Below, piece after piece: positions 2,195 to 31,300 of a DNA stretch of 32,233 bases. This stretch comes from Sulfuritalea sp. Its GTDB lineage: Bacteria; Pseudomonadota; Gammaproteobacteria; Burkholderiales; Rhodocyclaceae. The translations under genes and the position numbers were made by a program. How positions within the stretch are numbered: the first letter of the stretch is position 1; every line of letters begins with the position of its first letter. The notes below the pieces were generated by a model. The model was not told the DNA's origin, did no database searches, and saw only the letters and a list, made by a program, of their open reading frames with translations. Where the stretch lies: contig JAGXSN010000147.1 in the NCBI GenBank assembly GCA_018333815.1, positions 1 through 32,233 on the forward strand, in the 5' to 3' direction.

Positions 2195-2279
2195 GCCGGG
2201 AATGTGACATTGGTTACTGAACGGAAATAGTCGGAAATGCTCTAATCCCTGCGCATCCCACAACCCAAGGAGATTCGAA

Positions 2280-2480
2280 ATGAAAGCAAATGTTGGTGGC
2301 ATCGACCGCATCCTGCGCATCGTCGTCGGCCTTGCCCTGGTTGCCTGGGCGCTGATGGGCGGTCCCGTCTGGGCCTGGATCGGGGTCGTTCCTCTCGCTA
2401 CCGGACTGATCGGCTTCTGCCCGGTTTACCCCCTCCTCGGCATGAACACCTGCCCAAACACCTGCCCGATGAAGAAGTGA
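2280..2480 (+). CDS. DUF2892 (YgaP-like transmembrane domain) small membrane protein
   Basis: MKANVGGIDRILRIVVGLALVAWAL...GVVPLATGLIGFCPVYPLLGMNTC: characteristic DUF2892 pattern; AAGGAG ribosome binding site upstream. Confidence 0.85.
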   Translation: MKANVGGIDRILRIVVGLALVAWALMGGPVWAWIGVVPLATGLIGFCPVYPLLGMNTCPNTCPMKK

Positions 2481-2500
2481 GAGTCGATCTGCAGCCCGCA

Positions 2501-2526
2501 ACGGCGTGCCTCGGCACGCCGTTTTT
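2501..2526 (+). terminator. Rho-independent terminator
   Basis: acggcgtgcc-tc-ggcacgccgt followed by a T-tract (10-bp perfect stem). Confidence 0.9.
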
Positions 2527-2541
2527 GCTTAAAATGCGCGC

Positions 2542-3462
2542 ATGCTGAAACAACGCACCCTCAAGTCGATCGTTCGCACCACCGGTGTCGGCCTGCACTC
2601 CGGCGCCAAGGTGACGCTCGTCCTGCGTCCCGCCGCACCGGGCACGGGCATCGTGTTCCGGCGCGTCGATCTGGCGCCCGCCGTCGCCATCAAGGCCGAC
2701 CCGTTTGCCGTGGGCGACACGCGCCTGGCCTCGTGCCTCGAGAGGGACGGCGCGAAGCTCGGCACGGTCGAGCACCTGATGTCCGCCCTGGCCGGCCTGG
2801 GCATCGACAACCTCCACGTGGAGGTCGATGCCGAGGAGATCCCGATCCTCGACGGGTCGGCCGCGCCCTTCGTCTACCTGCTCCAGTCGGCCGGCATCGA
2901 GGAGCAGAACGCCCCGAAGCGGTTCATGCGCGTGAAGAAGGTCGTGGCGGTCAAGGACGGCGACAAGTGGGCGCGCCTGTCGCCCTACGAGGGATTTCGT
3001 GTCGAGTTCTCGATCCAGTTCAACCATCCGGCCGTCAATCGGTCGGGCGCCCGGGTCGCGGTAGACTTCGCCGACCAGTCCTACATCCGCGATATCGCGC
3101 GCGCGCGCACCTTCGGTTTCACCCAGGACGTGGAAACGATGCGGGCGCAGGGCCTGGCGCTCGGCGGCAGCCTGGAAAATGCGGTCGTGATGGACGAATA
3201 CCGCGTGCTGAACGCCGACGGCCTGCGTCTGCCGGACGAATTCGCGCGGCACAAGGCGCTCGATGCGGTTGGCGATCTCTACCTGGCCGGCGCGCCCCTG
3301 CTGGGGGCCTTCAGCGCCCACAAATCCGGCCATGCGCTCAACAACAGGCTGCTGCGCGCCCTGCTGTCCGACGCTGCCGCCTGGGAATGGGCGACGTTCG
3401 AGCGGCCGGACGCGACCCCGGCGCGCGTGGCCCGGCTGTTTCCCGACGTCCGGTTTGCATGA
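2542..3462 (+). CDS. lpxC: UDP-3-O-acyl-N-acetylglucosamine deacetylase
   Basis: [26 protein letters not shown]...[14 protein letters not shown]...LDGSAAPFV...[14 protein letters not shown]...SGHALNN. Confidence 0.97.
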
Positions 3463-16413: not shown

Positions 16414-16779
16414 TCAGTGCTCGCCCTTGGTGCGGCGAATCCCGGCCATGCGGTTGCCTTGCTTTTGCGGTCCGCCATAGGGAAACAGGACGTGCAGGTA
16501 ATGGTTGTTGCCGCGTTCCGGGCCCCAGATCTCGCGGAAGTGCTTGATCATGTCGCGCACCTGACCCTGCACCTGATGCTCGGCATAATGGTCGCGGATG
16601 AAACGGATCACCTCCCAGTGCTCTTCGGTGAGTTCCAGTCCTTCCTTCTTTGCCAGGGCGACGGCAAAGGCCTGCGACCACTGGTTCATATCCTGGATGT
16701 AGCCCTCCTGGTCGGTAGCAATGAGTTTGCCATCGACGTCGATATAGTCCGTGCGAATCGCGAAGGGGTTGGTTTGCAT
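16414..16779 (-). CDS. DsrC/TusE family protein lacking cysteines
   Basis: IDVDGKLIATDQEGYIQDMNQWSQAFAVALAKKEGLELTEEHWEVIRFIRDHYAEH...YLHVLFPYGGPQKQGNRMAGIRRTKGEH: DsrC fold signature, no Cys in the protein. Confidence 0.88.
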   Translation of the reverse strand: MQTNPFAIRTDYIDVDGKLIATDQEGYIQDMNQWSQAFAVALAKKEGLELTEEHWEVIRFIRDHYAEHQVQGQVRDMIKHFREIWGPERGNNHYLHVLFPYGGPQKQGNRMAGIRRTKGEH

Positions 16780-16789
16780 GGCATCCTTT

Positions 16790-17194
16790 CTATAGGGTCG
16801 AAACATAAGCCGCGAGGTTCTTGATCTCCTCGTCCGAGAGGTCCTTGGCCCACGGCGCCATCAAATCGGTCAGCGGCCCGATCTGACTTCCCGCGCGATA
16901 AGCGATGAGCATCGCCGCAACCCACTCCTCGGGACGCCCTGTGATCGCTGGGGTGAACTTGCCGCCGATGCCGAGTCGGTGGTGGCATAGCCGGCAGATG
17001 GATTCATACTTGTCCATGCCGGCGCGCACGACAGCGGCGCGCGCCGGGTCGACGGCTTGCAGCCGCTCCAGTTTGGCCATGTCCGGGCCCTTCCGCTTCT
17101 CTGCATCGCCGCTCTGGATGATCCCCTGCAGCGCGAAATGCACCCCGGCGCCGATAGCCAACACCAACATGATCCAGCCGACACTACGGAACAT
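16790..17194 (-). CDS. Membrane-anchored monoheme c-type cytochrome
   Basis: N-terminal hydrophobic helix, CRLCHH heme motif, downstream DLMAPWAKDLSDEEIKNLAAYVSTL typical of class I cytochrome c. Confidence 0.9.
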   Translation of the reverse strand: MFRSVGWIMLVLAIGAGVHFALQGIIQSGDAEKRKGPDMAKLERLQAVDPARAAVVRAGMDKYESICRLCHHRLGIGGKFTPAITGRPEEWVAAMLIAYRAGSQIGPLTDLMAPWAKDLSDEEIKNLAAYVSTL

Positions 17195-17263
17195 CCTTGC
17201 ATCCTTCCCGGCTCCGCATCGGACGTTGACGGGGCGGGCGGTTGACCATGGATGCCCGGGGAG

Positions 17264-17288
17264 CCGCCGTTTCGCGCGGAAACGGCGG
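17264..17288. other. Perfect 10-bp stem hairpin between narI and the cytochrome c gene
   Basis: ccgccgtttc-gcgcg-gaaacggcgg; no adjacent T-tract on the minus strand. Confidence 0.7.
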
Positions 17289-17308
17289 CATGTCCGTCCG
17301 CCACCCGT

Positions 17309-18019
17309 TCAACGTGCGACGAGATTCCGCTTGGTCCGCACGATCTGATAGGAGCGGGCCAGATAGCCGATCGGGAAGCTCCAGACATGAACCAGGCGGG
17401 TGAAGGGGAACAACAGGAACAGCGTCAAACCGAAGAACAGGTGGATCTGAAACACCATTTCGGCACTGGCGACCAACTCCGGCTTGGGATCGAACAACAC
17501 GATGCTCTTGGCCCATTGCGCCATTGCCATCATGGTGTCGGCGCTGCCCTGCGCGGCGTGGTGCGCGGTGGTGAATGTCGTGGCCAGGCCGAAGCCAAGA
17601 GTTACCAGCACCCAGATCAGGATGAAGGTATCCGAAGTCCGGCTGGCAGCGCTCACGCGCCGGTTCGTCAGGCGGCGGATCAGCAACATCAAACCGCCGA
17701 TCATGCACAGCAGGCCGAGGAAGCCGCCGCCGTACATCGCGATGTCCTGCTTGCCGAGCGAGGACAGACCGATGGCCTCCCAGACCGCATAAGGGGCCAG
17801 CAGGCCGATCAGGTGGCCGAAGAAGATGCCGATCACGCCAATGTGAAACAGGTTGCTGGCAAGTCGCATGTTCGCGTTGGAAAGGAGCTGGCTCGACGCG
17901 CTGGTCCAGCCATACTGCTCGCGGTCGAAACGGATCCAGCTGCCGATCACGAACACGCTCAGGCAGATATAGGGATAGATCCCGAAGATCAGATTGTTCC
18001 AGCCGAAGATTTCGTTCAT
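17309..18019 (-). CDS. narI: Respiratory nitrate reductase gamma subunit
   Basis: MNEIFGWNNLIFGIYPYICLSVFVIGSWIRFDREQYGWTSASSQLL...HIGVIGIFFGHLIGLL...FPFTRLVHVWSFPIGYLARSYQIVR. Confidence 0.97.
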   Translation of the reverse strand: MNEIFGWNNLIFGIYPYICLSVFVIGSWIRFDREQYGWTSASSQLLSNANMRLASNLFHIGVIGIFFGHLIGLLAPYAVWEAIGLSSLGKQDIAMYGGGFLGLLCMIGGLMLLIRRLTNRRVSAASRTSDTFILIWVLVTLGFGLATTFTTAHHAAQGSADTMMAMAQWAKSIVLFDPKPELVASAEMVFQIHLFFGLTLFLLFPFTRLVHVWSFPIGYLARSYQIVRTKRNLVAR

Positions 18020-18029
18020 TTCTTGCTCC

Positions 18030-18581
18030 TTAAGCAGCCAAACGGGAAGGTGTGGCGTGGCTTTTCAAACGGGTGAGGGTGGCGCGGCTCCTGACGATGG
18101 CAACCAGCGGCGCGTAGGGGCTGCCGGCCTTCGTCAGGTTGTCGGCCAGAACCGTCAGCACCTTGTGGGCGTCGGCCAGGAAGGCCGTGGCTTCGCTTTC
18201 GTCCAGTGTCGCGACGAATTCGAGGATCAGCGGCAGGTAGTCGGGCAGTTCGTTGGCCGCCACCTTCATGCCGTAGTCCTTGTACAACTCGCCAAGATCG
18301 ATCAGGGCCGGACCGCGGTTCCTGTCGTTGTCGTCGCCGAACAGGTGATGCGTCAAATGCAGGCTGTGCTCCGGCGCCAAGTCGAAGGTTTTGACGTAAC
18401 CCGCCTGCCGTTCGGTCAACGACATGCCGGTCAGGTGGTCGAGGAACGTGTCGAGCGTTCCCTTTTCCGCCGCATCGACGGCGGGATCGCGCGCGACCTC
18501 GGCGCGGATCTCATCGACGTGGTCGAGCAGCGCCTGATCGGGGTAGTCGAGCAGCGCCGAAATGATTTTGTAGATGGACAT
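18030..18581 (-). CDS. narJ: Nitrate reductase molybdenum cofactor assembly chaperone
   Basis: MSIYKIISALLDYPDQALLDHVDEI...HLTGMSLTERQAGYVKTFDLAPEHSLHLTHHLFGDDNDRNRGPALIDL; between narH and narI. Confidence 0.96.
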   Translation of the reverse strand: MSIYKIISALLDYPDQALLDHVDEIRAEVARDPAVDAAEKGTLDTFLDHLTGMSLTERQAGYVKTFDLAPEHSLHLTHHLFGDDNDRNRGPALIDLGELYKDYGMKVAANELPDYLPLILEFVATLDESEATAFLADAHKVLTVLADNLTKAGSPYAPLVAIVRSRATLTRLKSHATPSRLAA

Positions 18582-18594
18582 ATGGATTCTCCCG

Positions 18595-20139
18595 TCAACG
18601 GTCGGCCGGGGGCGCCAACTCGGCCGGCTCCGGCGTCTCCTTGCGGCGGCGCGGGAACAGGGTGATCTTGCTGATGCCGAGCGACGAATCGTTGCCGAAG
18701 GTGAAGCCGTTCTGGCCCTGGAAACCGTAGGCGTCGTCCATGCGCTCTTCCTGATGGCTGGTCGGGATGACGAAACGGTCTTCGTAGTTGGCGATCGCCA
18801 GATAGCGATACATCTCCTTCACCTGCTCCTCGGTGATGCCGGCGGCCTCCAGCGCGCGGGTGTCGACCATGCCCTCGACATTCAGCGAGCGGTAGTAGCT
18901 GCGCATTGCGATCATGCGGTTGAGTGCGACGCGGATCGGCTCTTCCTTGCCCGCGGTCATCAAGTTGGCGAGATACTTGGTCGGTGTGCGCATCGCGCTG
19001 GCGAGCGGGATGGCGCCGTCCGGACCGACCGGCAGCTTGCCCTGGTCGATTTGCGACAGCACCGGCGAGAGGGGCGGCACATACCACACCATCGGCAGCG
19101 TGCGGTACTCGGGGTGCAGTGGAAAGGCGATCTTCCAGTCGATGACCATCTTCCAGATCGGCGACTTCTGCGCGGCGACGATCCAGTCTTCGTTGATGCC
19201 CTCGGCACGCGCCGCGGCGATCACTGCCGGATCGTTCGGGTCCAGGAATATCTTGCAGTGCGCCTCGTACAGATCCTGCTCGTTGCCGATGCTGGCCAAC
19301 TCCTCGATGCGGTCGGCGTCGTAGAGCATGATGCCGTTGTAGCGGATGCGGCCGACGCAGGACTCCGAGCACACCGTCGGCATGCCGGACTCGACGCGCG
19401 GATAGCAGGCGATGCACTTCTCGGCCTTGCCGGATTCCCAGTTGTAGTACACCTTCTTGTAAGGGCAGGCGCTCTGGCAGAAACGCCAGCCGCGGCACTT
19501 GTCCTGGTCGACCAGCACGATGCCGTCCTCTTCCCGCTTGTAGAGCGAGCCGGAGGGACAGGCGGCGACGCAGGCCGGGTTCATGCAGTGGTTGCAGATG
19601 CGCGGCAGGTAGAGGTTGAAGCTGTTCTCGAACTGGCCGAGCATCTCCTTCTGGATGTTTTCCAGGTTCTTGTCCACGCTGCGCTTGGCGAACTCGCCGG
19701 CCAGGTCGTCTTCCCAGTTCGGGCCCCAGGTGATCTTCTCCATGGGGTCGCCGGTAAGCATCGACAGCGGCCGTGCGGTTGGCGCCGCCTCGGACAGCGG
19801 CGCGTTCTGCAGGCGCGCGTAGTTGTAGGTGAAGGGCTCGTAGTAGTCGTCGATCTGCGGCAGATCGGGGTTGGCGAAGATGTTGAGCAGCTTCGCGGCG
19901 CGGCCGCCCGACTTGAGCTCCAGCTTGCCGTTCCTGAGTTCCCAACCGCCTTTCCACATCTCCTGGTTTTCCCACTGCTTCGGATAACCGATGCCGGGCT
20001 TCGATTCGACGTTGTTGAACCAGACGTATTCGACGCCCTTGCGGTTGGTCCAGGTATTTTTGCAAGTTACCGAGCAGGTATGGCAGCCGATGCACTTGTC
20101 CATGTTGAAGACAAAGGCGAACTGAGCGCGTACTTTCAT
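18595..20139 (-). CDS. narH: Nitrate reductase beta subunit
   Basis: MKVRAQFAFVFNMDKCIGCHTCSVTCKNTWTNRKGVEYVWFNNVESKPGIGYPKQWENQ; multiple ferredoxin-type Cys clusters. Confidence 0.98.
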   Translation of the reverse strand: MKVRAQFAFVFNMDKCIGCHTCSVTCKNTWTNRKGVEYVWFNNVESKPGIGYPKQWENQEMWKGGWELRNGKLELKSGGRAAKLLNIFANPDLPQIDDYYEPFTYNYARLQNAPLSEAAPTARPLSMLTGDPMEKITWGPNWEDDLAGEFAKRSVDKNLENIQKEMLGQFENSFNLYLPRICNHCMNPACVAACPSGSLYKREEDGIVLVDQDKCRGWRFCQSACPYKKVYYNWESGKAEKCIACYPRVESGMPTVCSESCVGRIRYNGIMLYDADRIEELASIGNEQDLYEAHCKIFLDPNDPAVIAAARAEGINEDWIVAAQKSPIWKMVIDWKIAFPLHPEYRTLPMVWYVPPLSPVLSQIDQGKLPVGPDGAIPLASAMRTPTKYLANLMTAGKEEPIRVALNRMIAMRSYYRSLNVEGMVDTRALEAAGITEEQVKEMYRYLAIANYEDRFVIPTSHQEERMDDAYGFQGQNGFTFGNDSSLGISKITLFPRRRKETPEPAELAPPADR

Positions 20140-20170: not shown

Positions 20171-23100
20171 TCAACGCTTGCCGATGCCGGGCGGGTTGAG
20201 CTGCGCCTCGCGTTCCGGGGTCAGCGGGCGTTCCAGCCAGTCGACGTCCTTGTCGGCGACCTTGTGCAGCAGCACCATCGTGTCCCGGTTGACGCCCACG
20301 GGGCCCATGTAGTTGAAGGAATACGCGAGCTGCACGTAGCCGCCGATCATGTGCGTCGGCTTCACGACGACGCGGGTGACCGAATTCAGGATGCCGCCGC
20401 GCTTGCCGGTGGTGTGGGAGCCCGGCACGTTCACGTTCTTCTCCTGGGCGTGATACATCAGCGCCATGCCGAGCGGCACGCGCTGCGAGACCACCGCGCG
20501 CGCGACCGTGGCGCCGTTGCTGTTGACCGCCTCGACCCAGTCGTTGTCCTCGATGCCCACTTGCTTGGCGTCACCCTCGGAAATCCACACATAGGGGCCG
20601 CCGCGGAACAGCGTGAGCATGCGCAGGTTGTCCTGGTAGGTCGAATGAATGCCCCACTTGGAGTGCGGCGTGATCCAGTTGAGTTTCACGTGCGGCTTCT
20701 TCAGGACGGCCGGCGGCGTCCTTTCCAGGTCCTTCATGTCATGCGGCGGGCGATAGGCGCAAAGTCCCTCGCCGAAGTCCAGCATCCATTCGTGATCCTG
20801 GTAAAAGTGGGCCCGACCCGTCAGCGTGCGGAACGGGATGTGCTCGTGAATGTTGGTGTAACCGGACGTGTAGGACACATGCTCGGACTCGACGCCCGAC
20901 CAGGTCGGCGCGGTGATGATCTTGCGGGGCTGCACCTGAATGTCGCGGAAGGTGATCTTGTCTTCGTGACGTGCGGAGTACAGATGGTGGTGGTCGATGC
21001 CGGTTTTCCTGGACATCGCGCTCCAGGACTTGTGTGCAACCTCGCCGCAGGTCTCCGGCGCCATGCGCATCACCGCGTCGCAGACACCGATGTCGTCCTC
21101 GAGCGATGGCATCCCCTGGGAGACTCCGGCGTCCTTGACGACGCCGTTCATCACCTTGAGCTGCTCATACTCGGCCGTGGTGTTCCAGTCGACGCCCTTG
21201 ATGTTGTTGCCCAGCTTGACCATCAACGGGCCCAGCGCGATGAACTTGTTATAGGTGGAGGCGTAGTCGCGTTCGACGAGCTTGATGATCGCCATGGTCT
21301 TGCCCGGTACGGGTTCGCATTCGCCCTTCTTCCAGTCCTTCACCTGCCCGAGCGGCTGTGCGAGTTCGAAAGGCGAGTCGTGCTGCATCGGCAGCATCAC
21401 GATGTCCTTGCGTTTGCCCAGATGCTTCGCCGCCAGTCCGGAAAAGGTCTGCGCGATCGACTTGAAGATCTGCCAGTCGGACTTCGACTCCCAGGCTGGC
21501 GACACCGCCTCCGACAGCGGATGGATGAACGGATGCATGTCGGTGGTGTTGAGGTCGTTCTTCTCGTACCAGGTTGCGGTTGGCAGGACGATGTCGGAGT
21601 AGGCGCCGGTGGAGTTGAGGCGGAAGTTGATGTCAACCATCAGGTCGAGCTTGCCGATCGGCGCCTCGTCGTGCCACTTGATCAACTGGTTGTCGCGTCC
21701 GTCGCCGCTCTCCTGCAGCACGCCGTTTTGTGCGCCGAGCAGGTGCTTGAGGAAATACTCGTGCCCCTTCGCGGAGCAACCGATCAGGTTGGCGCGCCAG
21801 ACAAACAGGTTGCGCGGCCAATTCCTCTCGTTGTCCGGGTCGGCAAAGGCAACGTCGAGCGAGCCGTCCTTGAGCTTGCCGATGACATGCTTGACGATGC
21901 CGGCCTCGTCGGTCGCGCCGTTTTTCTCGGCCTCGTCGGCCAGGTCGAGGGTGTTCGCGTTCCAGTGCGGCACGGACGGCAGCCAGCCCATGCGCACCGA
22001 GGCGACGTTGTAGTCGGCCAGCGAATAGCCCTTGTTCCTGCCCTTGCCGGCGGGCGAGAGGATATCGTCGGCCCTGATGGTCTCGTAGCGCCACTGGTCG
22101 GTGTGGAAATACCAGTAGGAGGTCGAGTTCATTTGGCGCGGCGGCCGGTGCCAGTCGAGCGCGAAGGCGATCGGCGCCCAACCGGCCTGCGGTCGCAGCT
22201 TTTCCTGGCCGACGTAATGCGCCCAGCCGCCGCCCGACTGACCCACGCAGCCGCAGATGTGCAACAGGTTCATGATGCTGCGGTACTGCATGTCGTTGTG
22301 GTACCAGTGGTTGATCGCGGCGCCCAGGATCACCATCGACTTGCCGTGGGTCTTGGCGGCGTTGTAGGCGAACTCCCGACCGGTGCGCTCGAGATCGGCG
22401 GCCTTGACGCCGGTGATCTTCTCGGCCCAGGCCGGCGTGTAGGCAACGTTGGCGTCGGCGTAGCCATTGGCGACGTTGGCGCCGCCCAGGCCGCGATCGA
22501 TGCCGTACTGGGCGACCTGCATGTCGAACACGGAGGTGACGAGAACTTCCTCGCCGCTGGCGAGCCTCAGGCGGCGGGCCGGCACGTTGCGATAGAGCAG
22601 TTCGCCCTCGCCCGTCACGAAGTGCGGAAAGCCGACCGAAACGACCTCATCCCTGCCGGCGATGCAGGACAGCTCGGCTTCGATCTCCTGCTGGTCGGCG
22701 GCATTCTTCGGCAGCAGGTTCCATTTGCCTTCCTCGCCCCAGCGGAAACCGACGGAACCGTTCGGCGCGACGAAAGACCTGCTCTTGGCGTCGAAGACGA
22801 TGGTCTTCCATTCGGGGTTGTTGGTCTCGCCCAAATTGTCGGCGAAGTCGGAGGCGCGCAGGCAGCGGTCGGAGACATAGCCTGCGCCATGCTTGCGCAG
22901 CATCACCTGCACCGGCAGGTCGGTGTACTTGCGCCCGTATTCGGCGAAATACGGATCCTGCTGGTCGATGAAGAACTCCTTCAGTGCGACATGGCCCATG
23001 GCCAGGAAGGCTGCGGCGTCGGTACCTTGCCGGACCGGCATCCAAAGGTCGGAGGCCTTGCAATACTCGGCATAGTCGGGGGCCATCGAGATGACCTTGG

Positions 23101-23926
23101 CGCCCTTGTAACGCACCTCGGAAACGAAGTGGGCATCCGGCGTGCGGGTGGTCGGCAGGCTGGAGCCGCAGACGATGAGGTAGGTGGAGTTATACCAGTC
23201 GGCCGACTCGGGCACGTCGGTCTGTTCGCCCCAGGTCATCGGCGAAGAAACCGGGAGATCGCAGTACCAGTCGTAGAACGAACCGCACCCGCCGCCGATC
23301 AGCGAGAGATAGCGCGAACCGGCCGCATAGGAAATCATCGACATCGCCGGGATCGGCGAGAAACCGAAAATGCGGTCCGGCCCCCACTTCTTGGCGGTAT
23401 AGACGTTCGCCGCGGCGATGATCTCCTTGGCTTCCTCCCAGTTGGCGCGCACGAAGCCGCCGAGGCCGCGCACGGCCGTGTATTTCTTGCGTTTCTCGGG
23501 ATCGGCCTGGATGGCGGCCCACGCCTCCACGGGATCCTTGCCGGACTTGCGCTCGGCGCGGTAGAGATCGAGCAGGCGGCCGCGGATCAACGGATGTTTG
23601 ATCCGGTGCGGGCTGTAGAGATACCAGGAGAACGACGCGCCGCGCTGGCAGCCGCGCGGCTCGTGGTCGGGCAGGTCCTCGCGCGTGCGCGGATAATCGG
23701 TCTGCTGCATCTCGAACGACACGAGGCCATTCTTGACGAAGATCTTCCAGGAGCAGCCGCCGGTGCAGTTTACGCCGTGGGTCGAGCGCACGACCTTGTC
23801 GTGCTGCCAGCGATGGCGGTAGCCGTCCTCCCAGTCGCGATCCTCGTTGGTGACGATGCCGTGGTTGTTGGAAAAGGTCTCCTTCGTTTTTTCGAAGAAC
23901 CTCAGTCGATCGAGAAAATGACTCAT
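20171..23926 (-). CDS. narG: Nitrate reductase alpha subunit
   Basis: MSHFLDRLRFFEKTKETFSNNHGIVTNEDRDWEDGYRHRWQHDKVVRSTHGVNCTGGCSWKIFVKNGLVSFEMQQTDYPRTREDLPDHEPRGCQRGAS. Confidence 0.99.
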   Translation of the reverse strand: MSHFLDRLRFFEKTKETFSNNHGIVTNEDRDWEDGYRHRWQHDKVVRSTHGVNCTGGCSWKIFVKNGLVSFEMQQTDYPRTREDLPDHEPRGCQRGASFSWYLYSPHRIKHPLIRGRLLDLYRAERKSGKDPVEAWAAIQADPEKRKKYTAVRGLGGFVRANWEEAKEIIAAANVYTAKKWGPDRIFGFSPIPAMSMISYAAGSRYLSLIGGGCGSFYDWYCDLPVSSPMTWGEQTDVPESADWYNSTYLIVCGSSLPTTRTPDAHFVSEVRYKGAKVISMAPDYAEYCKASDLWMPVRQGTDAAAFLAMGHVALKEFFIDQQDPYFAEYGRKYTDLPVQVMLRKHGAGYVSDRCLRASDFADNLGETNNPEWKTIVFDAKSRSFVAPNGSVGFRWGEEGKWNLLPKNAADQQEIEAELSCIAGRDEVVSVGFPHFVTGEGELLYRNVPARRLRLASGEEVLVTSVFDMQVAQYGIDRGLGGANVANGYADANVAYTPAWAEKITGVKAADLERTGREFAYNAAKTHGKSMVILGAAINHWYHNDMQYRSIMNLLHICGCVGQSGGGWAHYVGQEKLRPQAGWAPIAFALDWHRPPRQMNSTSYWYFHTDQWRYETIRADDILSPAGKGRNKGYSLADYNVASVRMGWLPSVPHWNANTLDLADEAEKNGATDEAGIVKHVIGKLKDGSLDVAFADPDNERNWPRNLFVWRANLIGCSAKGHEYFLKHLLGAQNGVLQESGDGRDNQLIKWHDEAPIGKLDLMVDINFRLNSTGAYSDIVLPTATWYEKNDLNTTDMHPFIHPLSEAVSPAWESKSDWQIFKSIAQTFSGLAAKHLGKRKDIVMLPMQHDSPFELAQPLGQVKDWKKGECEPVPGKTMAIIKLVERDYASTYNKFIALGPLMVKLGNNIKGVDWNTTAEYEQLKVMNGVVKDAGVSQGMPSLEDDIGVCDAVMRMAPETCGEVAHKSWSAMSRKTGIDHHHLYSARHEDKITFRDIQVQPRKIITAPTWSGVESEHVSYTSGYTNIHEHIPFRTLTGRAHFYQDHEWMLDFGEGLCAYRPPHDMKDLERTPPAVLKKPHVKLNWITPHSKWGIHSTYQDNLRMLTLFRGGPYVWISEGDAKQVGIEDNDWVEAVNSNGATVARAVVSQRVPLGMALMYHAQEKNVNVPGSHTTGKRGGILNSVTRVVVKPTHMIGGYVQLAYSFNYMGPVGVNRDTMVLLHKVADKDVDWLERPLTPEREAQLNPPGIGKR

Positions 23927-23959: not shown

Positions 23960-25609
23960 TTACGGGTTCTTGATTTCGGAAGCGGCACGCAGGTAGAACC
24001 ACCAGTTGATGACCACGCAAACGGCGTAGAAGGCCGCAAAGCTGTACATGGCGTACTCGGGCGTGCCGGCCTTGATCTGGGCCCCGATCACCAACGGGGC
24101 GATGAAGGAACCGTAGGCGCCGACCGCCGAGGTCCAGCCCAGCACGGGGCCGGCCTGGGTGCGGTCGAAGATCACGCCGACGGTACGGAAGGTCGAGCCG
24201 TTGCCGATGCCGGAGGCCGCGAACAGCACGACGAAGGTGACCATGAACCGGAAGAAATAGATTTCCGGCGTCGCCGACTGGTAGGCCTGCATCATGACGT
24301 AGCCGGCGTAGGCCGAGGCCACCACCATCACCACGGAAACCGCCTGAGTGACGATGGCGCCGCCGACCTTGTCGGAGATCCAGCCGCCGATCGGACGGAT
24401 CAGTGCGCCGACGAAGGGGCCGATCCAGGCGTAAGTCAGCGCAGAGGGGGCGTTGGGGTTTTTCAGTGCATGGCTCCAGGCGCCGGTGGTTGGATCGAGC
24501 GTGTGCTGGAAGCCAAAGATCACCGTGATCGACAGCGGCACCGCCATCGAGAAGCCGATGAAGGAACCGAAGGTGACGATATAGAGCGCGGTCATCGACC
24601 AGGTGTGCTTGTTCTTGAAGATCTCGAACTGCTTGGTGAGGTTGGCTTTCATGTCGCCGAAGGCGGCCAGCTTCATCACCAGCAGCGTGGCGACGATGAT
24701 CAGCGGCAGCGCCACCCACATGTTGAGCAGGCCGAGGCCGTTAGGCGCCGGCAGGTAAAGATAGAGGCCGATCCCGGCGGTAAGGAAGGCCAGACCGTAT
24801 AGCCACAGGATCTTGGCGAAGGCCGCAGCAGTCGAACCGATGCCGGGCGAAATCACCAGCAGATTGTTCATGCCGAAGAAGCTGAAGAAGGCCAGCGGCG
24901 CCAGCAGCAGCAGCCAGACAAAACCGGCGTTCTGGATGAAGGTCGGCGTGCCGGCGGCGATCTTGCCGAATATCCAGCCCGAATCCTTGACCAACTCCAT
25001 CGAGCCGCCGGCGAAGGCGCCGAACAGGCCGACGGTCATCACAAGCGGGATCGCGATCTGCATGGTGGTGACGCCGAAGTTGCCGAGGCCGGCGTTGATG
25101 CCGAGCGCCGTGCCCTGCTGGCTCTTCGGGAAGAAGGTGCTGATGTTGGACATCGAGCAGGCGAAGTTGCCGCCGCCGATGCCGGACAGCAGCGCCGCCA
25201 GCTGGAACACCCACAGCGGGGTGTTTTTGTCCTGCAGCGCGATGCCGGTCAGCATGGCCGGAATCATCAGCAGCGCAGTCGTCAGGAACACCGTATTGCG
25301 GCCGCCGGCGATGCGGATGAAGAAGGAGGCCGGAATACGCAGCGTCGCCCCGGACAGGCCGGCGATGGCCGTCAGGGTAAACAGCTCGTCGGGCTTGAAC
25401 GGAAAGCCCAGGTTGAGCATCTGCACGGTGATGATGCCCCACATCAGCCAGACGGCGAAGCCGCACAGCAGGCTGGGCACGGAAATCCAGAGGTTGCGGT
25501 TGGCGATGGATTTTCCGGTGGTCTCCCAGAAGTTCTTGTCTTCCGGGCGCCAGTCGACGATGTCCCGCTTCGAAGTCGGTGCAGGGGCCTGCGTCGTTGT
25601 CGCGCTCAT
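23960..25609 (-). CDS. narK2: MFS nitrate/nitrite transporter, NarK2-like
   Basis: DWRPEDKNFWETTGKSIANRNLWISVPSLLCGFAVWLMWGIITVQMLNLGFPF...GIGGGNFACSMSNISTFFPKSQQGTALGINAGLGNFGV. Confidence 0.93.
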   Translation of the reverse strand: MSATTTQAPAPTSKRDIVDWRPEDKNFWETTGKSIANRNLWISVPSLLCGFAVWLMWGIITVQMLNLGFPFKPDELFTLTAIAGLSGATLRIPASFFIRIAGGRNTVFLTTALLMIPAMLTGIALQDKNTPLWVFQLAALLSGIGGGNFACSMSNISTFFPKSQQGTALGINAGLGNFGVTTMQIAIPLVMTVGLFGAFAGGSMELVKDSGWIFGKIAAGTPTFIQNAGFVWLLLLAPLAFFSFFGMNNLLVISPGIGSTAAAFAKILWLYGLAFLTAGIGLYLYLPAPNGLGLLNMWVALPLIIVATLLVMKLAAFGDMKANLTKQFEIFKNKHTWSMTALYIVTFGSFIGFSMAVPLSITVIFGFQHTLDPTTGAWSHALKNPNAPSALTYAWIGPFVGALIRPIGGWISDKVGGAIVTQAVSVVMVVASAYAGYVMMQAYQSATPEIYFFRFMVTFVVLFAASGIGNGSTFRTVGVIFDRTQAGPVLGWTSAVGAYGSFIAPLVIGAQIKAGTPEYAMYSFAAFYAVCVVINWWFYLRAASEIKNP

Positions 25610-25630: not shown

Positions 25631-26899
25631 TCATTCGATCGGGTCGGCGCAATGGCTGCGCCGCCGCCTCATGTAATCCAGCTTGCGTACCTCGGTGGTG
25701 TACATCCAGATCAGGCTGACCCAGACCACGCCGTACATCAGCATGAAGGCGGAGGAGCGGATGCCGGTGAGGTCCGTCAGCGCGCCGAACATGATCGGCA
25801 GGAGGAAGCCGCCCAAGCCGCCGACCAGGCCGACGATGCCGGACACCGTGCCGATGTTGTGCGGATACTCGTCGGCGATATACTTGAACACGCTGGCCTT
25901 GCCGAAGGCGAAGGCGACGCCGACGACGAACAGCAGTGCGGTGAATACTTCCGGCGACAGGGCGATGCGCCAGGTCTGCGGGCCGGTCACGGTATGCACG
26001 GTGAACTCGGTCTGCGGATAGGACATGAAGAACAGGCAGATCCACGACACCCACAGCACCCACCAGGTCACGCGGTGCGCGCCCCACTTGTCCGACAGCC
26101 AGCCGCCCGCCGCGCGCAGGATGCCGCCCGGCAGCGAAAACGCGGCGGCCAGCAGCGCCGCCTTGGCCAGATCGAACTCGTACTCGGCCACGTAATAGCG
26201 CGTCATCCACAACGACAGCGCGACATAGCCGCCGAACACGATGGAGTAATACTGGCAGTATTTCCATACCACAGGGTCCTTCAGCAAGGCGAGCTGGTCA
26301 CGCACGGTCACGTGCGATGGCGCGCGGTGCGCCGGGTCGTCGTAGGTGAGCAGCCAGAACAGGATGGCGGTGACCAGCATTGCAGCGGCATATACCTGCG
26401 GCACCATGGTCCAGCCGTAGGCGAGGACGATGGCCGGCGCCACCAGCTTGGTCACCGCCGCGCCGACGTTGCCGACGCCGAAAATACCCATGGCCAGACC
26501 CTGCCGCGATTTCTTGAACCAGCGCGCGCAGCAGGAGATGCCTACGGAAAACGAGCCGCCGGCCAGGCCGACGAACAGGCCGATCACCAGGAAATGCCAG
26601 AACTCGGTGGCGGCGGACATCAGCCAGATCGGCCCCACCGTCGCCAGCATCAGCGCGAAGAACACCACGCGACCGCCGAATTTGTCGGTGAGCATGCCCA
26701 GAGGCAGGCGGACCAGCGAACCGGTCAGCACCGGCGTGGCGATGAGCACGCCGAACTGGGTCTCGTTGAGGTCCAGCTGTTCCTTGAGCGGAACACCCAT
26801 CACCGCGAACATCATCCATACGGCGAAACACACGGTGAAGGCGAAGGTATTCATGACCACCACCGACCAGGCCTTGCGTTCGTGCGTTGTCGACACCAT
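25631..26899 (-). CDS. narK1: MFS nitrate transporter, NarK1-like
   Basis: VVMNTFAFTVCFAVWMMFAVMGVPLKEQLDLNETQFGVLIATPVLTGSLVRLPLGMLTDKFGGR...GGSFSVGISCCARWFKKSRQGLAMGIFGVGNVGA. Confidence 0.92.
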   Translation of the reverse strand: MVSTTHERKAWSVVVMNTFAFTVCFAVWMMFAVMGVPLKEQLDLNETQFGVLIATPVLTGSLVRLPLGMLTDKFGGRVVFFALMLATVGPIWLMSAATEFWHFLVIGLFVGLAGGSFSVGISCCARWFKKSRQGLAMGIFGVGNVGAAVTKLVAPAIVLAYGWTMVPQVYAAAMLVTAILFWLLTYDDPAHRAPSHVTVRDQLALLKDPVVWKYCQYYSIVFGGYVALSLWMTRYYVAEYEFDLAKAALLAAAFSLPGGILRAAGGWLSDKWGAHRVTWWVLWVSWICLFFMSYPQTEFTVHTVTGPQTWRIALSPEVFTALLFVVGVAFAFGKASVFKYIADEYPHNIGTVSGIVGLVGGLGGFLLPIMFGALTDLTGIRSSAFMLMYGVVWVSLIWMYTTEVRKLDYMRRRRSHCADPIE

Positions 26900-27067: not shown

Positions 27068-27733
27068 CTAGTTCTTCTGGGCTAGACCGTGCTCGACGGC
27101 ATAGACGGCCGCCTGGACCCGGCCGGCCAGGTTGAGCTTCTTGAGGATGCCCTGAATGTGGATCTTGACCGTGCTCTCGGCCAGATCGAGCGCGCGCGCG
27201 ATTTCCTTGTTGCTCGCGCCCTGGGCAAGAAAGCCCATCACCTCGCGCTCGCGCTGGGTCAGCTTTTCATGGCTGGCCGGCGTCTGCGGCGCCGCCGTCC
27301 GCGGGGCGCCGCGTACGCTCGCCATGAGCTTGGCCGTCATCTGCGGCGACATCACCGCGTCGCCGGCGGCGGCGCGCCGGATCGCATCGACCAGGAAGTC
27401 CGCATCGATGTTCTTGAGCAAATAGCCTTGGGCGCCGGCCCGCAGGGCTTCGACCAGATCGTCGGCATCTTCCGATACCGTCAGCATCACCACGCGCGGC
27501 GGGTCGTCGCACCCGGCGATCAACTGGACCGCCTCGCACCCCGAGATGCCCGGCATGTGCAGGTCGAGCAGCACGACGTCGGGATGGAGCGACTGGGCGC
27601 GCTTGACGCCCTCGTGCCCGTCGCCCGCCTCGCCGACCACCTCGAAGCCCTTCTGCCGCTGCAGCAGCGCCTTGATGCCGCTCCTGAACAGCGTGTGGTC
27701 GTCTACCAGCAGAATGCGAATCGGACTTTCCAT
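27068..27733 (-). CDS. narL: NarL-family response regulator
   Basis: MESPIRILLVDDHTLFRSGIKALLQRQ...DVVLLDLHMPGISG...LTQREREVMGFLAQGASNKEIARALDLAESTVKIHIQGILKKLNL. Confidence 0.95.
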   Translation of the reverse strand: MESPIRILLVDDHTLFRSGIKALLQRQKGFEVVGEAGDGHEGVKRAQSLHPDVVLLDLHMPGISGCEAVQLIAGCDDPPRVVMLTVSEDADDLVEALRAGAQGYLLKNIDADFLVDAIRRAAAGDAVMSPQMTAKLMASVRGAPRTAAPQTPASHEKLTQREREVMGFLAQGASNKEIARALDLAESTVKIHIQGILKKLNLAGRVQAAVYAVEHGLAQKN

Positions 27734-27739
27734 GCCTAT

Positions 27740-29683
27740 TTACGCGGCCGCAGTTTCGACCGTGCCGGGGAGCCGGAGAATAACATGGGCGCCGCGGCCG
27801 GGCGCCGACGCCAATTCCAGGCGTGCGCCGATGCGGTGAGCGCGTTCGCGCATGATGGCGACGCCGACATGCGTGCCGCCATCCTCGTCGAGCGCTTCCG
27901 GATCGAAGCCGCGCCCGTCGTCACGCACGGCGATCGACAGATCCTCGCCGCGGTCGATCTCGATGGCCACCGTGCCGGCGCCCGCGTGCTTGCGCACGTT
28001 GGAGAGCGCTTCCTGGACGATGTGCAGCACCTGAATGACGCTCATCGACTCCGGCAACGGCGCATCGCCGCTGACGACGAGCGAGGTGCGTATGCCGGTT
28101 TGCCCCTCGAAGCGGTCCAGGGCGCTGCGGATCGCGCCTTCGAGGTCGGCGCCGCTACCGACGCGGATGCGAAAATGCACCAGCAGTTCGCGGACGTTGT
28201 CGTAGCTTTCCTGGATGCCCTCGCGCATGCGCGCGAGCTCCTTCTCCGCCGGTTCGGTCTCGCCGGCGCGCAACGAAGCCTGCAGCATCTGTGCCTGGAT
28301 GTTGAGGAAGGCCAGCGACTGGGCGATGCTGTCGTGCAATTCCTGCGCCAGCAGGTTGCGCTCTTCCGACACCGCCATCTCTTTCTCGCGCAGCGCCAGC
28401 CGCCGGTTCTCGATGGCCACGCCGAGCTGCTGACCGACGGCCTCGAGCAGCTGGATTTCGCTGGCGGTCAGAGGGCGCTGGCCGCGAAAGAACAGATTGA
28501 AGATGCCGAATATCTGGCTCTTCGACATGATCGGGATGGCCGCCAGCGACGGCAGTCCCTCATGCGCGCAGTTGAGCAACAGGCCGCTCCGGTCGGTCGG
28601 TTTTTCCGCCACCGAGCGTCCGCTGGCCGCGGCGCGGCCGCACAGGCAAGTCCCCACCGGCAGGCGCGCCTCGGCTTGCAGGAAGTCTTCGGAGAGATTG
28701 ACGGCAGCGACAATCTCGAGTTCCTGCGTCTTGGCGTCGATCAGGCGCACGGCCCCCGACTCGGCCGCCAGCAGGACACGCAGCTTGTCGAGCACGCCGC
28801 GGCATACGGTCTCGATGTCCGCCGGTTCGGCCAAATAGGCGGCGATCTCGTAGAGCACCGCCAACTCGAGGTTCTTCTCCTCGATGTCGCGCGTCTTCTC
28901 GACGACGCGCTGCTCCAGCGTGTCGTAGAGGCCGCGCAGCTGGTCGGCCATGCGATTGAAGCCGGCCGCCAGTTCGCCGACCTCGTCGCGGGATTCGACG
29001 GGCGCGCGCACGCTGAAGTCGGCCGCTGCCATGCGATCCATGCCGAGCTTGAGCGTCTCGACCGGCTGGATCACCACCAGGCGGAACAGCAGGGTCAGGA
29101 ACAGCGTTCCGCCAAGGGAGAAACCGACCAGCGCGTTCAGGATCAGCCAGGTCGAGTTGGTGTAGCGGGCGTTGGTTTTCTCGATGACCAGCACCAACGC
29201 GTCGATCCGCTGCACGAAGTCGCGAACGACTTCCACCAGGTCGTCGAGGTCTCGTTGCGCATCGTCGCTGTCGGCCGTCGCCATCGCCCGGCTGATTAGA
29301 GGCAGCATGCGATGCTGCCAGTCCAAGCGCAAACCGGCCATGGCCAGATGCACCTCCTCGGTGCGCGGCAGGAACAGCGGTCGTTCGGGATCCCCGTCCT
29401 CCAGCAGAACAAGCGCCGAATCGAACTGGCCGACCGTATCGACCGCAGCGCTGATCCAGCGCGCATGCTCTGGCGTTCCGGCGGCCCGTTCGAGCAGGTA
29501 GGCGATGCGATAGATCCGCATGCGCTGGGCGCCGGCCTCGTTGATGGCCGCGGCGCCGCCTTCGAGCTGCCGGCCGACATGGAGCGTCACCATGATCATG
29601 GACAGGGCAACCAGAAAGAACAGCAGCAGGATGGCATTGATCTTGGTGCTCAGTTTGCCCGGCAGGCGCGCCAAACTCAGCAT
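27740..29683 (-). CDS. narX: Nitrate/nitrite sensor histidine kinase NarX-like
   Basis: N-terminal type IV pili methyl-accepting-like sensor, HAMP, GAF with CLCG...CAHEG, HisKA_3 ELHDSIAQSLAFLNIQAQML and HATPase. ATG at 29683 preferred over the TTG ORF start. Confidence 0.93.
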   Translation of the reverse strand: MLSLARLPGKLSTKINAILLLFFLVALSMIMVTLHVGRQLEGGAAAINEAGAQRMRIYRIAYLLERAAGTPEHARWISAAVDTVGQFDSALVLLEDGDPERPLFLPRTEEVHLAMAGLRLDWQHRMLPLISRAMATADSDDAQRDLDDLVEVVRDFVQRIDALVLVIEKTNARYTNSTWLILNALVGFSLGGTLFLTLLFRLVVIQPVETLKLGMDRMAAADFSVRAPVESRDEVGELAAGFNRMADQLRGLYDTLEQRVVEKTRDIEEKNLELAVLYEIAAYLAEPADIETVCRGVLDKLRVLLAAESGAVRLIDAKTQELEIVAAVNLSEDFLQAEARLPVGTCLCGRAAASGRSVAEKPTDRSGLLLNCAHEGLPSLAAIPIMSKSQIFGIFNLFFRGQRPLTASEIQLLEAVGQQLGVAIENRRLALREKEMAVSEERNLLAQELHDSIAQSLAFLNIQAQMLQASLRAGETEPAEKELARMREGIQESYDNVRELLVHFRIRVGSGADLEGAIRSALDRFEGQTGIRTSLVVSGDAPLPESMSVIQVLHIVQEALSNVRKHAGAGTVAIEIDRGEDLSIAVRDDGRGFDPEALDEDGGTHVGVAIMRERAHRIGARLELASAPGRGAHVILRLPGTVETAAA

Positions 29684-29758
29684 CGCAAACCCGCTGCACC
29701 GGTGCGGCAAGCAAACAGCCGACGGGTCGGCGCGCCCTGGGCAGCCATCATGCCCTCC

Positions 29759-30934
29759 TCACGGCATGATCTCGACATATTCGTAAACCTCGTTGTCGAC
29801 CAGGCGCTTCCGGACCGGCACGGCCAGCTTGGCGAACCACGCGTGCGGATCGTGTCGGTCGATCTCGCGCCCCATGAAGCGGATCAGTTCGCAGATCGGC
29901 TCGACGACGTTGGTGCGGTAGCGCTCGTCCTTCTTGACATAGCCGAGCCACAGGTTTTTCATGCAGTTGCGGCGGCACCAGGAAAACGCCTCGCAGCCCT
30001 CGCAGGGCATCTCCGGGCTCGGCTGCAGCGGGCTCTTCTTGAGCCAGTTGCCCTGGATCTCGCCCATCTGCATGGGGTGGACATACATCATGTCCGGGCA
30101 GGGGAAGATCTGGCCGTCGGGCATGACGTTGATGAGGTGGGAGGAGGCGCGGCACTGCGTGAGGCCGGCGTAAAGCTCGGCGCCGCGATTGGGCAGCAGC
30201 TTGTTCCTCACCATGCCCATCACCGGGATCAGCGGATAGAGTGCGTCGCTGCGGGCGAAGAACCTGTCGATCAGCCTGACCAGCACGGCCTTGCGCTTCG
30301 CCACCGAGTCGCCGGAGTACATCTCGTCGGCGACGAACTGCCAGTAGAGGTAGTCGATGGCTTCGAGCGCCGCGGCCAGCTCGTCGAGCTCCTCGAACGC
30401 GGTGTCTGGGTTGCCCCAGGTGACGCGCGCCGTGATGGTGCCGCCGACGCGGCCATGCACCCTGTCCAGGTTGGCGATCACCTGCCGCCAGATGCCGCGC
30501 CCGCGATAGCCGTCGGTGGTCGCCTCGCCGCCGTCGATCGAGACCAGGATGTTGGAAAACCTTGCCAGCATCCAGTCCGGCAGGTCGTCGAGCAGCGTGC
30601 CGTTGGTCTGGAGCTGAAAGCGGAATTCGGGGAAGCGCCGCATCACCTGTTCCATCATCGGGCGGTTGAGCGTCGGTTCGCCGCCGTAGAAGGTGACGTA
30701 GACCTCCTTGCCCCTGAGGTGGGTGGCGACGAAACGGGCGAGTTGGTCGATGTCGTATTTGAGTTCGGTCTGCGAGCCGAGCACGCCGCCGACGCCGAGC
30801 GAGCAGTAGGTGCACTTGAGGTTGCACTTGAGCGTGGTCAGCAGCTGCAGTTCGACGCGGCCGCCGACGATGGGATCGGGATCGGAGACGGGCTGGATGG
30901 GCGCCGGAGCGAAATCGAGGACATGCGTCATCAT
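29759..30934 (-). CDS. Radical SAM/SPASM domain protein
   Basis: TTLKCNLKCTYCSLG (CxxxCxxC), YVTFYGGEPTLN, C-terminal Cys-rich QCRASSHLINVMPDGQIFPCPDM...CEGCEAFSWCRRNC. Start MMTHV chosen at 30934; the longer ORF extension runs through repeat-like sequence. Confidence 0.92.
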   Translation of the reverse strand: MMTHVLDFAPAPIQPVSDPDPIVGGRVELQLLTTLKCNLKCTYCSLGVGGVLGSQTELKYDIDQLARFVATHLRGKEVYVTFYGGEPTLNRPMMEQVMRRFPEFRFQLQTNGTLLDDLPDWMLARFSNILVSIDGGEATTDGYRGRGIWRQVIANLDRVHGRVGGTITARVTWGNPDTAFEELDELAAALEAIDYLYWQFVADEMYSGDSVAKRKAVLVRLIDRFFARSDALYPLIPVMGMVRNKLLPNRGAELYAGLTQCRASSHLINVMPDGQIFPCPDMMYVHPMQMGEIQGNWLKKSPLQPSPEMPCEGCEAFSWCRRNCMKNLWLGYVKKDERYRTNVVEPICELIRFMGREIDRHDPHAWFAKLAVPVRKRLVDNEVYEYVEIMP

Positions 30935-31064
30935 CGTGATCGATTCCTGAAGGGAGGGGCGAAGGCACAAGCCTGCGGCCGGCATTATCCTACGGGCAGA
31001 CTTCGGCGTAAGCGGGGGGATCGAGAGATGCGCCTTCCGGACTCGGCTCGGAGGTTCCGCGGCT

Positions 31065-31088
31065 GCCGTCCCGCCGGCGCCGACTTTC
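31065..31088 (-). repeat. Copy E of dispersed element upstream of the radical SAM gene (gaaagtcggcgccggcgggacggc on minus)
   Basis: Near-identical to copy A (one substitution in 24 nt). Confidence 0.7.
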
Positions 31089-31142
31089 AGCCCGGCCTGC
31101 CGTCGGCGCGCCCATGTGCGCGTTCTGCGCTTCGCCGCAGCC

Positions 31143-31300
31143 GGCAAATCCATATCATAAATATATTTTATGCAATTGAAAGTTTTTTTTTTAATTACAT
31201 ACAAAATAGATCAGGTTTATGATCCAACCTTAAAGCAACTATAAGCTTGTCGCCATATTGCAATGTTTTCCTTATGCAATAAGCAAAATGAACCACCAGC
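31143..31300. promoter_or_regulatory. AT-rich intergenic region with T10 tract, candidate regulatory region for the MCP gene
   Basis: catatcataaatatattttatgcaattgaaagttttttttttaattacat... in otherwise GC-rich DNA; direct repeats TTATGCAAT at 31168-31176 and 31272-31280. Confidence 0.5.

Follow-up and report, generated by a model that had tools for sequence, protein, structure and literature searches.

Many dsr-bearing sulfur oxidizers respire nitrate, and we know of no answer to the question of how such organisms run or coordinate a cytoplasmic sirohaem sulfite reductase beside the production of nitrite in the cytoplasm. The haem of dissimilatory sulfite reductase can be coordinated by nitrite (PMC8840924). 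In crystals, the arm of DsrC occupies the cleft between DsrA and DsrB and its penultimate cysteine reaches the sirohaem (PMC3397948). According to the same paper, this cysteine (Cys111 in A. vinosum) is strictly conserved in DsrC, and the binding of DsrC to DsrEFH depends on it (PMC3397948).

The protein considered here is encoded within a stretch of 32,233 nucleotides from Sulfuritalea sp. (assembly GCA_018333815.1, contig JAGXSN010000147.1), referred to below as the window, where it closes a nar operon. Judged by its sequence relationships it is a member of a distinct, highly conserved family of DsrC paralogues in which both persulfide-carrying cysteines are fixed as Asn and Glu. We use the working name DsrC-GEH, taken from the final residues of the clade.

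The nar operon and its last gene

The open reading frame of this cysteine-free DsrC-family protein runs on the minus strand from an ATG at 16779 to a stop at 16414 and encodes 121 amino acids; the original prediction had the coordinates 16414-16779 right, and the strand has now been added. An alternative in-frame ATG is found at 16806, and the start at 16779 is favored by orthologues that begin MQTNP or MKTNP and by the Shine-Dalgarno sequence AGAAAGGA upstream of it. This ribosome-binding site is a good one, and the DsrC-GEH start lies 10 nt past the cytochrome c stop.

DsrC-GEH is the last in a run of minus-strand genes that proceeds from radical SAM through narXL, narKK, narGHJI and cytochrome c. 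Domain profiles identify the product of the gene ahead of narXL (29759-31204) as a SPASM-type radical SAM protein and show, after it, a NarX-like histidine kinase with PilJ, HAMP, GAF and HisKA_3 domains (27740..29710), followed by a NarL-like response regulator (27068..27733; PF00072 and PF00196) and two NarK-type transporters, the first at 25631..26899 and the second at 23960..25609 (both PF07690). The assignment of narG (20171..23926, 1251 aa) comes from size, gene order and 74-86% identity to its counterpart in other nar clusters rather than from a profile search; it precedes narH (18595..20139; PF14711 and Fer4 domains), narJ (18030..18581; PF02613, 47.1 bits) and narI (17309..18019; PF02665, 266 bits, and TIGR00351). 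A single-haem, membrane-anchored cytochrome c with one CxxCH (16790..17194; PF13442, 38.7 bits, and sequence) separates narI from the DsrC-GEH gene, the two not being directly adjacent in the window, and relatives of this cytochrome lie at the equivalent position in loci L038 and L093 of other genomes. Beyond the DsrC-GEH gene lies a convergent fur gene. A scan for a promoter or terminator of its own around the DsrC-GEH gene gave nothing clearly above shuffled sequences.

Within the spacer that separates narI from the cytochrome c gene, at 17263-17289 (minus strand), is a hairpin with a perfect 11 bp stem, a 5-nt loop and no T-run following; because the full spacer sequence shows no greater folding stability than shuffles, no function is claimed for the hairpin. 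The radical SAM protein has an 82% identical counterpart at the equivalent position of locus L035, and its gene therefore looks fixed in this type of nar cluster. Locus L035 also carries, past the radical SAM gene at the far end of the nar cluster (16832-17158), a further DsrC variant with one cysteine, an odd C-terminus (...MKRPRAWSTG) and a very long branch in the tree.

A predicted DsrC fold with both arm cysteines replaced

The window protein matches PF04358 with 116.6 bits (cut-off 24.9), which places it in the DsrC/TusE/DsvC superfamily, and TIGR03342 with 105.3 bits, above the curated threshold of 53.5. The top Foldseek matches to its AlphaFold2 model (pLDDT 91.3) are all DsrC chains, giving a DsrC fold for the predicted structure, and the nearest solved fold is that of A. 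vinosum DsrC, 1YX3 (TM 0.79/0.85). The arm is 102-GGPQKQGNRMAGIRRTKGEH-121, in which Asn109 stands at the position of the second arm cysteine of functional DsrC (CysB, Cys100 in A. vinosum) and Glu120 at that of the penultimate cysteine (CysA). Against the TusE profile PRK11508 the protein scores 102.5 bits, below the equivalog cut-off of 191.

These results bear out the reading of the gene product as a DsrC-family protein with no cysteine among its 121 residues, which with both arm cysteines replaced cannot carry a persulfide; the closing sequence that had been quoted for it, GPQKQGNRMAGIRRTKGEH, is also correct. A cysteine-free protein of this length is expected by chance in about 23-38% of cases (at 0.8-1.2% Cys), making the absence unremarkable by itself. 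What goes beyond chance, on the alignments described below, is the fixed replacement of both arm cysteines.

The genome from which the window comes also has a canonical dsrEFHC-M cluster that includes a DsrC with two cysteines. In addition it carries dsrA and, as a third DsrC paralogue, a protein with the ending KGGY.

DsrC-GEH as a separate clade

In three close relatives from other genomes, which share 65-73% identity with the window protein, the last 20 residues are nearly unchanged. A scan of GTDB genomes gave 80 DsrC-GEH loci from Beta- and Gammaproteobacteria and from one genome labelled Rhodospirillales; L057 and L101 are apparently duplicates of the contigs of L035 and L036, with which they agree in length, and each pair should count once. 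In all 80 the arm has the sequence FPxGGPQKQGNRxAG and the ending GEH, one additional relative beyond them ends GEV, and across all 93 collected relatives the arm is essentially fixed, so that the most constrained region of the protein is its C-terminal arm and not the helices of the fold. The CysB position, a cysteine in 98% of 45 sampled DsrC proteins, is Asn109 in 100% of the 93 clade members, and the CysA position, a cysteine in 100% of the same 45, is Glu120 in 100% of the clade. Also specific to the clade against these 45 are a Gly insertion at 102, W85, H96, Q105, R110 and the C-terminal His; the one-residue insertion may alter the reach of the arm.

In the tree DsrC-GEH forms a single clade of one origin (SH-aLRT 99), and in a class-wide sample of 274 genomes the clade profile picks out 14 carriers at 174-215 bits, all other DsrC proteins scoring at most 124.5. 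A decaying paralogue is ruled out by an arm that is invariant in 93 sequences of many families.

Several Gammaproteobacteria carry an extra conserved domain of about 95 residues on the N-terminal side of the cysteine-free DsrC domain (L091:9704-10345, L097:9707-10345, L115:1044-1682, L116:9707-10345, L155:8330-8968, L156:2320-2958 and L157:7868-8506). It has no Pfam match; the predicted structure is a beta-sandwich, connected through a disordered linker, with weak fold similarity to transthyretin/CnaB-like domains. Viral carriage of the clade was not found: two IMG/VR viral contigs with matches (L148:5001-5297 and L149:5001-5297) encode ordinary two-cysteine DsrC proteins ending KPTGCI, outside the clade.

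Genomic settings

The 80 loci fall into nar (34), nas (10) and dsr (18) settings and a group with HPP or NnrS neighbors (5), the remainder lying near contig ends or having no resolved context; many come from MAGs, and neighboring genes were called by homology with our own queries. The linkage to narI that the original prediction drew from this one operon is thus real and widespread, being present at 34 of the 80 loci in other genomes and in 5 of the 14 class-sample carriers, and a linkage peculiar to the window's genome is ruled out by the survey. At 33 of the 80 loci the gene is preceded closely by narI in the same orientation; at one more, L092, a copy lies on each side of narGHJI. The carriers include a culturable dsr+ nar+ strain, Sedimenticola selenatireducens DSM 17993, in which the gene follows narI (L045).

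Ten loci are assimilatory nitrate clusters with nirBD, nasA, a fused Fe-S/DmsC-type subunit, a transporter and a kinase-phosphatase. In the nirB-nirD-nasA cluster at L104:3019-9955, and likewise in L085, L113, L117, L150, L153, L154 and L158, the partner subunit is a 4Fe-4S protein fused to a DmsC-type membrane anchor, a composition that suggests assimilatory nitrate reduction linked to quinol rather than to NADH or ferredoxin. A single protein combining a PP2C phosphatase with a Ser/Thr kinase lies beside a nitrate transporter and adjoins the cysteine-free DsrC gene at L050:8304-10001, L052 and L097.

Within dsr operons, the DsrC-GEH gene follows dsrN at 12 of the 80 loci. In Hydrogenophaga/Rhodoferax-type genomes the two are fused, DsrN (a CobB-type amidotransferase) being continuous with the cysteine-free DsrC domain; by profile, L110 (8570-10330) encodes DsrN and DsrC in a single uninterrupted protein, and an equally long frame is seen in L102 and L112. 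Six further loci have a unit with tandem TusA, which in most cases also holds a KGGY-type paralogue and lies next to dsrA. Directly before the tandem-TusA gene of L094, near dsrA, is an ORF (2271-3098) that matches Pfam Cas6 with 177.6 bits, and related ORFs occur in L106 and L107. Three loci place DsrC-GEH after an HPP-family membrane gene and two before NnrS; the HPP family includes known nitrite transporters (PMC4137279).

Of the 14 class-sample carriers, five have the gene in nar and five in nas settings, one beside HPP and LysR genes, two beside LysR only and the remaining one without resolved context. Nine of them have napA, never near the DsrC-GEH gene, and no true NapA was found within the 80 loci. 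With periplasmic Nap never adjoining, the linkage narrows from nitrate reduction as such to nitrite in the cytoplasm as the feature common to these settings.

Co-occurrence with dsrA and narI

In the class-wide sample dsrA is present in all 14 carriers, compared with 93 of the full 274 genomes (Fisher 1.3e-7, the genomes not being phylogenetically independent). It was likewise present in 48 of 50 further carriers, picked mainly for a DsrC-GEH gene lying outside a dsr operon, and both exceptions are draft MAGs. About a dozen families show this pattern. The reverse does not apply: DsrC-GEH is carried by 14 of the 93 dsrA-bearing genomes, and most genomes with dsrA are without the gene.

Among 45 narI-bearing genomes, DsrC-GEH lies beside narI in 5 of the 22 that have dsrA and in none of the 23 that do not (p 0.02, kinship ignored). 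The 17 of 22 without a copy beside narI indicate that the protein is not essential for the combination of nar and dsr. Within the window's genus, narI occurs in 3 of 19 genomes, and exactly these three carry DsrC-GEH, in every case beside narI; other DsrC proteins are present in all 19. Outside the genus, five relatives with narI gave no DsrC-family match, and DsrC-GEH is absent from them.

The near-restriction to dsrA genomes, taken with the linkage to nitrate and nitrite genes, suggests from genome comparison an unrecognized connection between nitrate use and sulfur oxidation. The original prediction proposed that the protein modulates the nitrate reductase or signals its redox state. This is not favored: the clade also occurs in dsr operons and in nas clusters without nar, and practically only in dsrA genomes, which makes a shared partner in the Dsr system more likely. 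The co-occurrence with dsrA would look the same whether the partner were DsrAB, DsrMK, DsrL or another Dsr protein.

A possible role at the Dsr machinery

We lean, tentatively and with somewhat less than even confidence, toward DsrC-GEH being a catalytically dead mimic of DsrC, made together with cytoplasmic nitrite producers and docking on the Dsr machinery, probably on DsrAB, to shield or throttle it. The protein would retain the docking ability of DsrC, its arm would most likely enter the DsrA/DsrB cleft leading to the sirohaem, and once docked it would neither deliver nor accept sulfur. Produced alongside NarGHI, NasA/NirB or an HPP family transporter, it could serve as a plug or competitor of DsrC, keeping nitrite or NO away from the sirohaem or lowering flux through Dsr, while nitrate is being reduced. 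With Glu in place of the penultimate cysteine and a terminal His, it would not be expected to engage DsrEFH in the manner of DsrC. A plug or competitor on DsrAB is the simplest account of a gene that is nearly restricted to dsr-bearing genomes and linked to cytoplasmic nitrite. The pose of the arm within DsrAB is a guess, as the arm tip (residues 119-121) is disordered in the model (pLDDT 33). Stated in full, as a family of dead mimics carried by nitrate and nitrite modules for Dsr-type oxidizers, whose Glu/His-tipped arm plugs the sirohaem cleft of DsrAB and protects or switches the sulfite reductase upon the appearance of cytoplasmic nitrite, the proposal is rather doubtful.

It is unlikely that DsrC-GEH is a transcription factor that uses the helix-turn-helix of the fold to bind the promoters of dsr genes, nitrate genes or both and so match sulfur oxidation to the availability of nitrate. 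PMC7787665 cites Venceslau 2014 for a putative function of DsrC as a regulator of transcription, part of the model is weakly similar to the LexA DNA-binding domain (E ~1), and the co-occurrence with dsrA would be explained if the dsr promoter were the target. However, the strongest constraint is found in the C-terminal arm and not in the helices, the net charge of the window protein is negative (-2), and the modules already have regulators of their own, NarXL here and LysR elsewhere.

An action on DsrK of DsrMKJOP, where DsrC-GEH would compete with the disulfide form of DsrC and steer electrons or the quinone pool to nitrate reduction, seems quite unlikely. It would account for the dsrA co-occurrence as well as a DsrAB partner does, reduction of DsrC by DsrK is proposed in PMC3397948, and the relationship between NarI and DsrM, to which the original prediction appealed, holds up, with DsrM matching PF02665 at 44.8 bits and NarI matching DsrM at E 2e-5. 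Yet it is not obvious why DsrK should be bound by a protein that lacks the disulfide, and the quinone pool leaves the linkage to NasA, NirB and HPP genes unexplained.

At 34 of 80 loci the gene lies directly downstream of narI, and at others it follows nasA or the gene for the partner subunit of NasA. These positions would suit an accessory subunit of the co-encoded nitrate reductase or a factor in its maturation, but this is distinctly improbable: the same clade stands at HPP loci and in dsr operons that have neither nar nor nas, no subunit common to NarGHI and NasA would explain both, and its absence from all 23 genomes with narI and no dsrA, together with its occurrence outside nar operons, leads us to reject a general nitrate-reductase subunit. 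A role in making, inserting or protecting sirohaem, the cofactor common to DsrAB and NirB, is the least probable, for although the gene adjoins or is fused to DsrN and lies near CysG-type genes, and NirB, a nitrite/sulfite-reductase-type enzyme, is encoded in the nas clusters, the commonest setting is narGHJI, which has no sirohaem, and most dsrA genomes are without the gene, 14 of 93 having it.

As a dead mimic or otherwise, DsrC-GEH is a concrete candidate for the coordination of dsr with nitrite, moving with nitrate and nitrite modules and almost only in dsr-bearing genomes. Some of what is counted as "dsrC/tusE" in metagenomes and transcriptomes encodes proteins that cannot carry sulfur.

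Comparison with known DsrC-type proteins

No description of a nar-linked cysteine-less DsrC, of the clade's linkage to nar or nas, or of its dependence on dsrA was found in open-licence papers, and an earlier description may exist elsewhere. RspA-type DsrC-like proteins without arm cysteines, with a proposed regulatory (DNA-binding) role, were reportedly described by Venceslau et al. in 2014; DsrC-GEH resembles them in having no arm cysteine. A search for RspA in open-licence papers gave unrelated matches only.

The KGGY-type paralogues of dsr clusters likewise lack the penultimate cysteine, and most also lack the second. They lie next to dsrA in the window's own genome (C66:6184-6501, locus L037) and in L094, L096, L106, L107 and L111, and at five loci a KGGY-type gene directly precedes a GEH-type gene. 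DsrC-GEH differs from them in forming its own clade (SH-aLRT 99) and in the end of its arm, and the KGGY copy of the window's genome is about 33% identical to the window protein. To TusE (PRK11508), of the tRNA thiolation relay, DsrC-GEH is similar by profile, but it falls below the equivalog score and is without the penultimate cysteine that TusE requires.

With the DsrC of sulfur oxidizers (A. vinosum 1YX3, TIGR03342) DsrC-GEH shares the predicted fold and the arm backbone motif FP-GP-KQ---AG---G, and the window protein is about 41% identical to the DsrC of its own genome. Against this stand Asn109 and Glu120 in place of the persulfide/disulfide cysteines, Gly at 102, the residues specific to DsrC-GEH (W85, H96, Q105, R110 and the C-terminal His) and the separate clade. 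DsrC-GEH thus belongs to the DsrC superfamily by profile and fold, yet it has neither of the cysteine features of functional DsrC and does not qualify as TusE.
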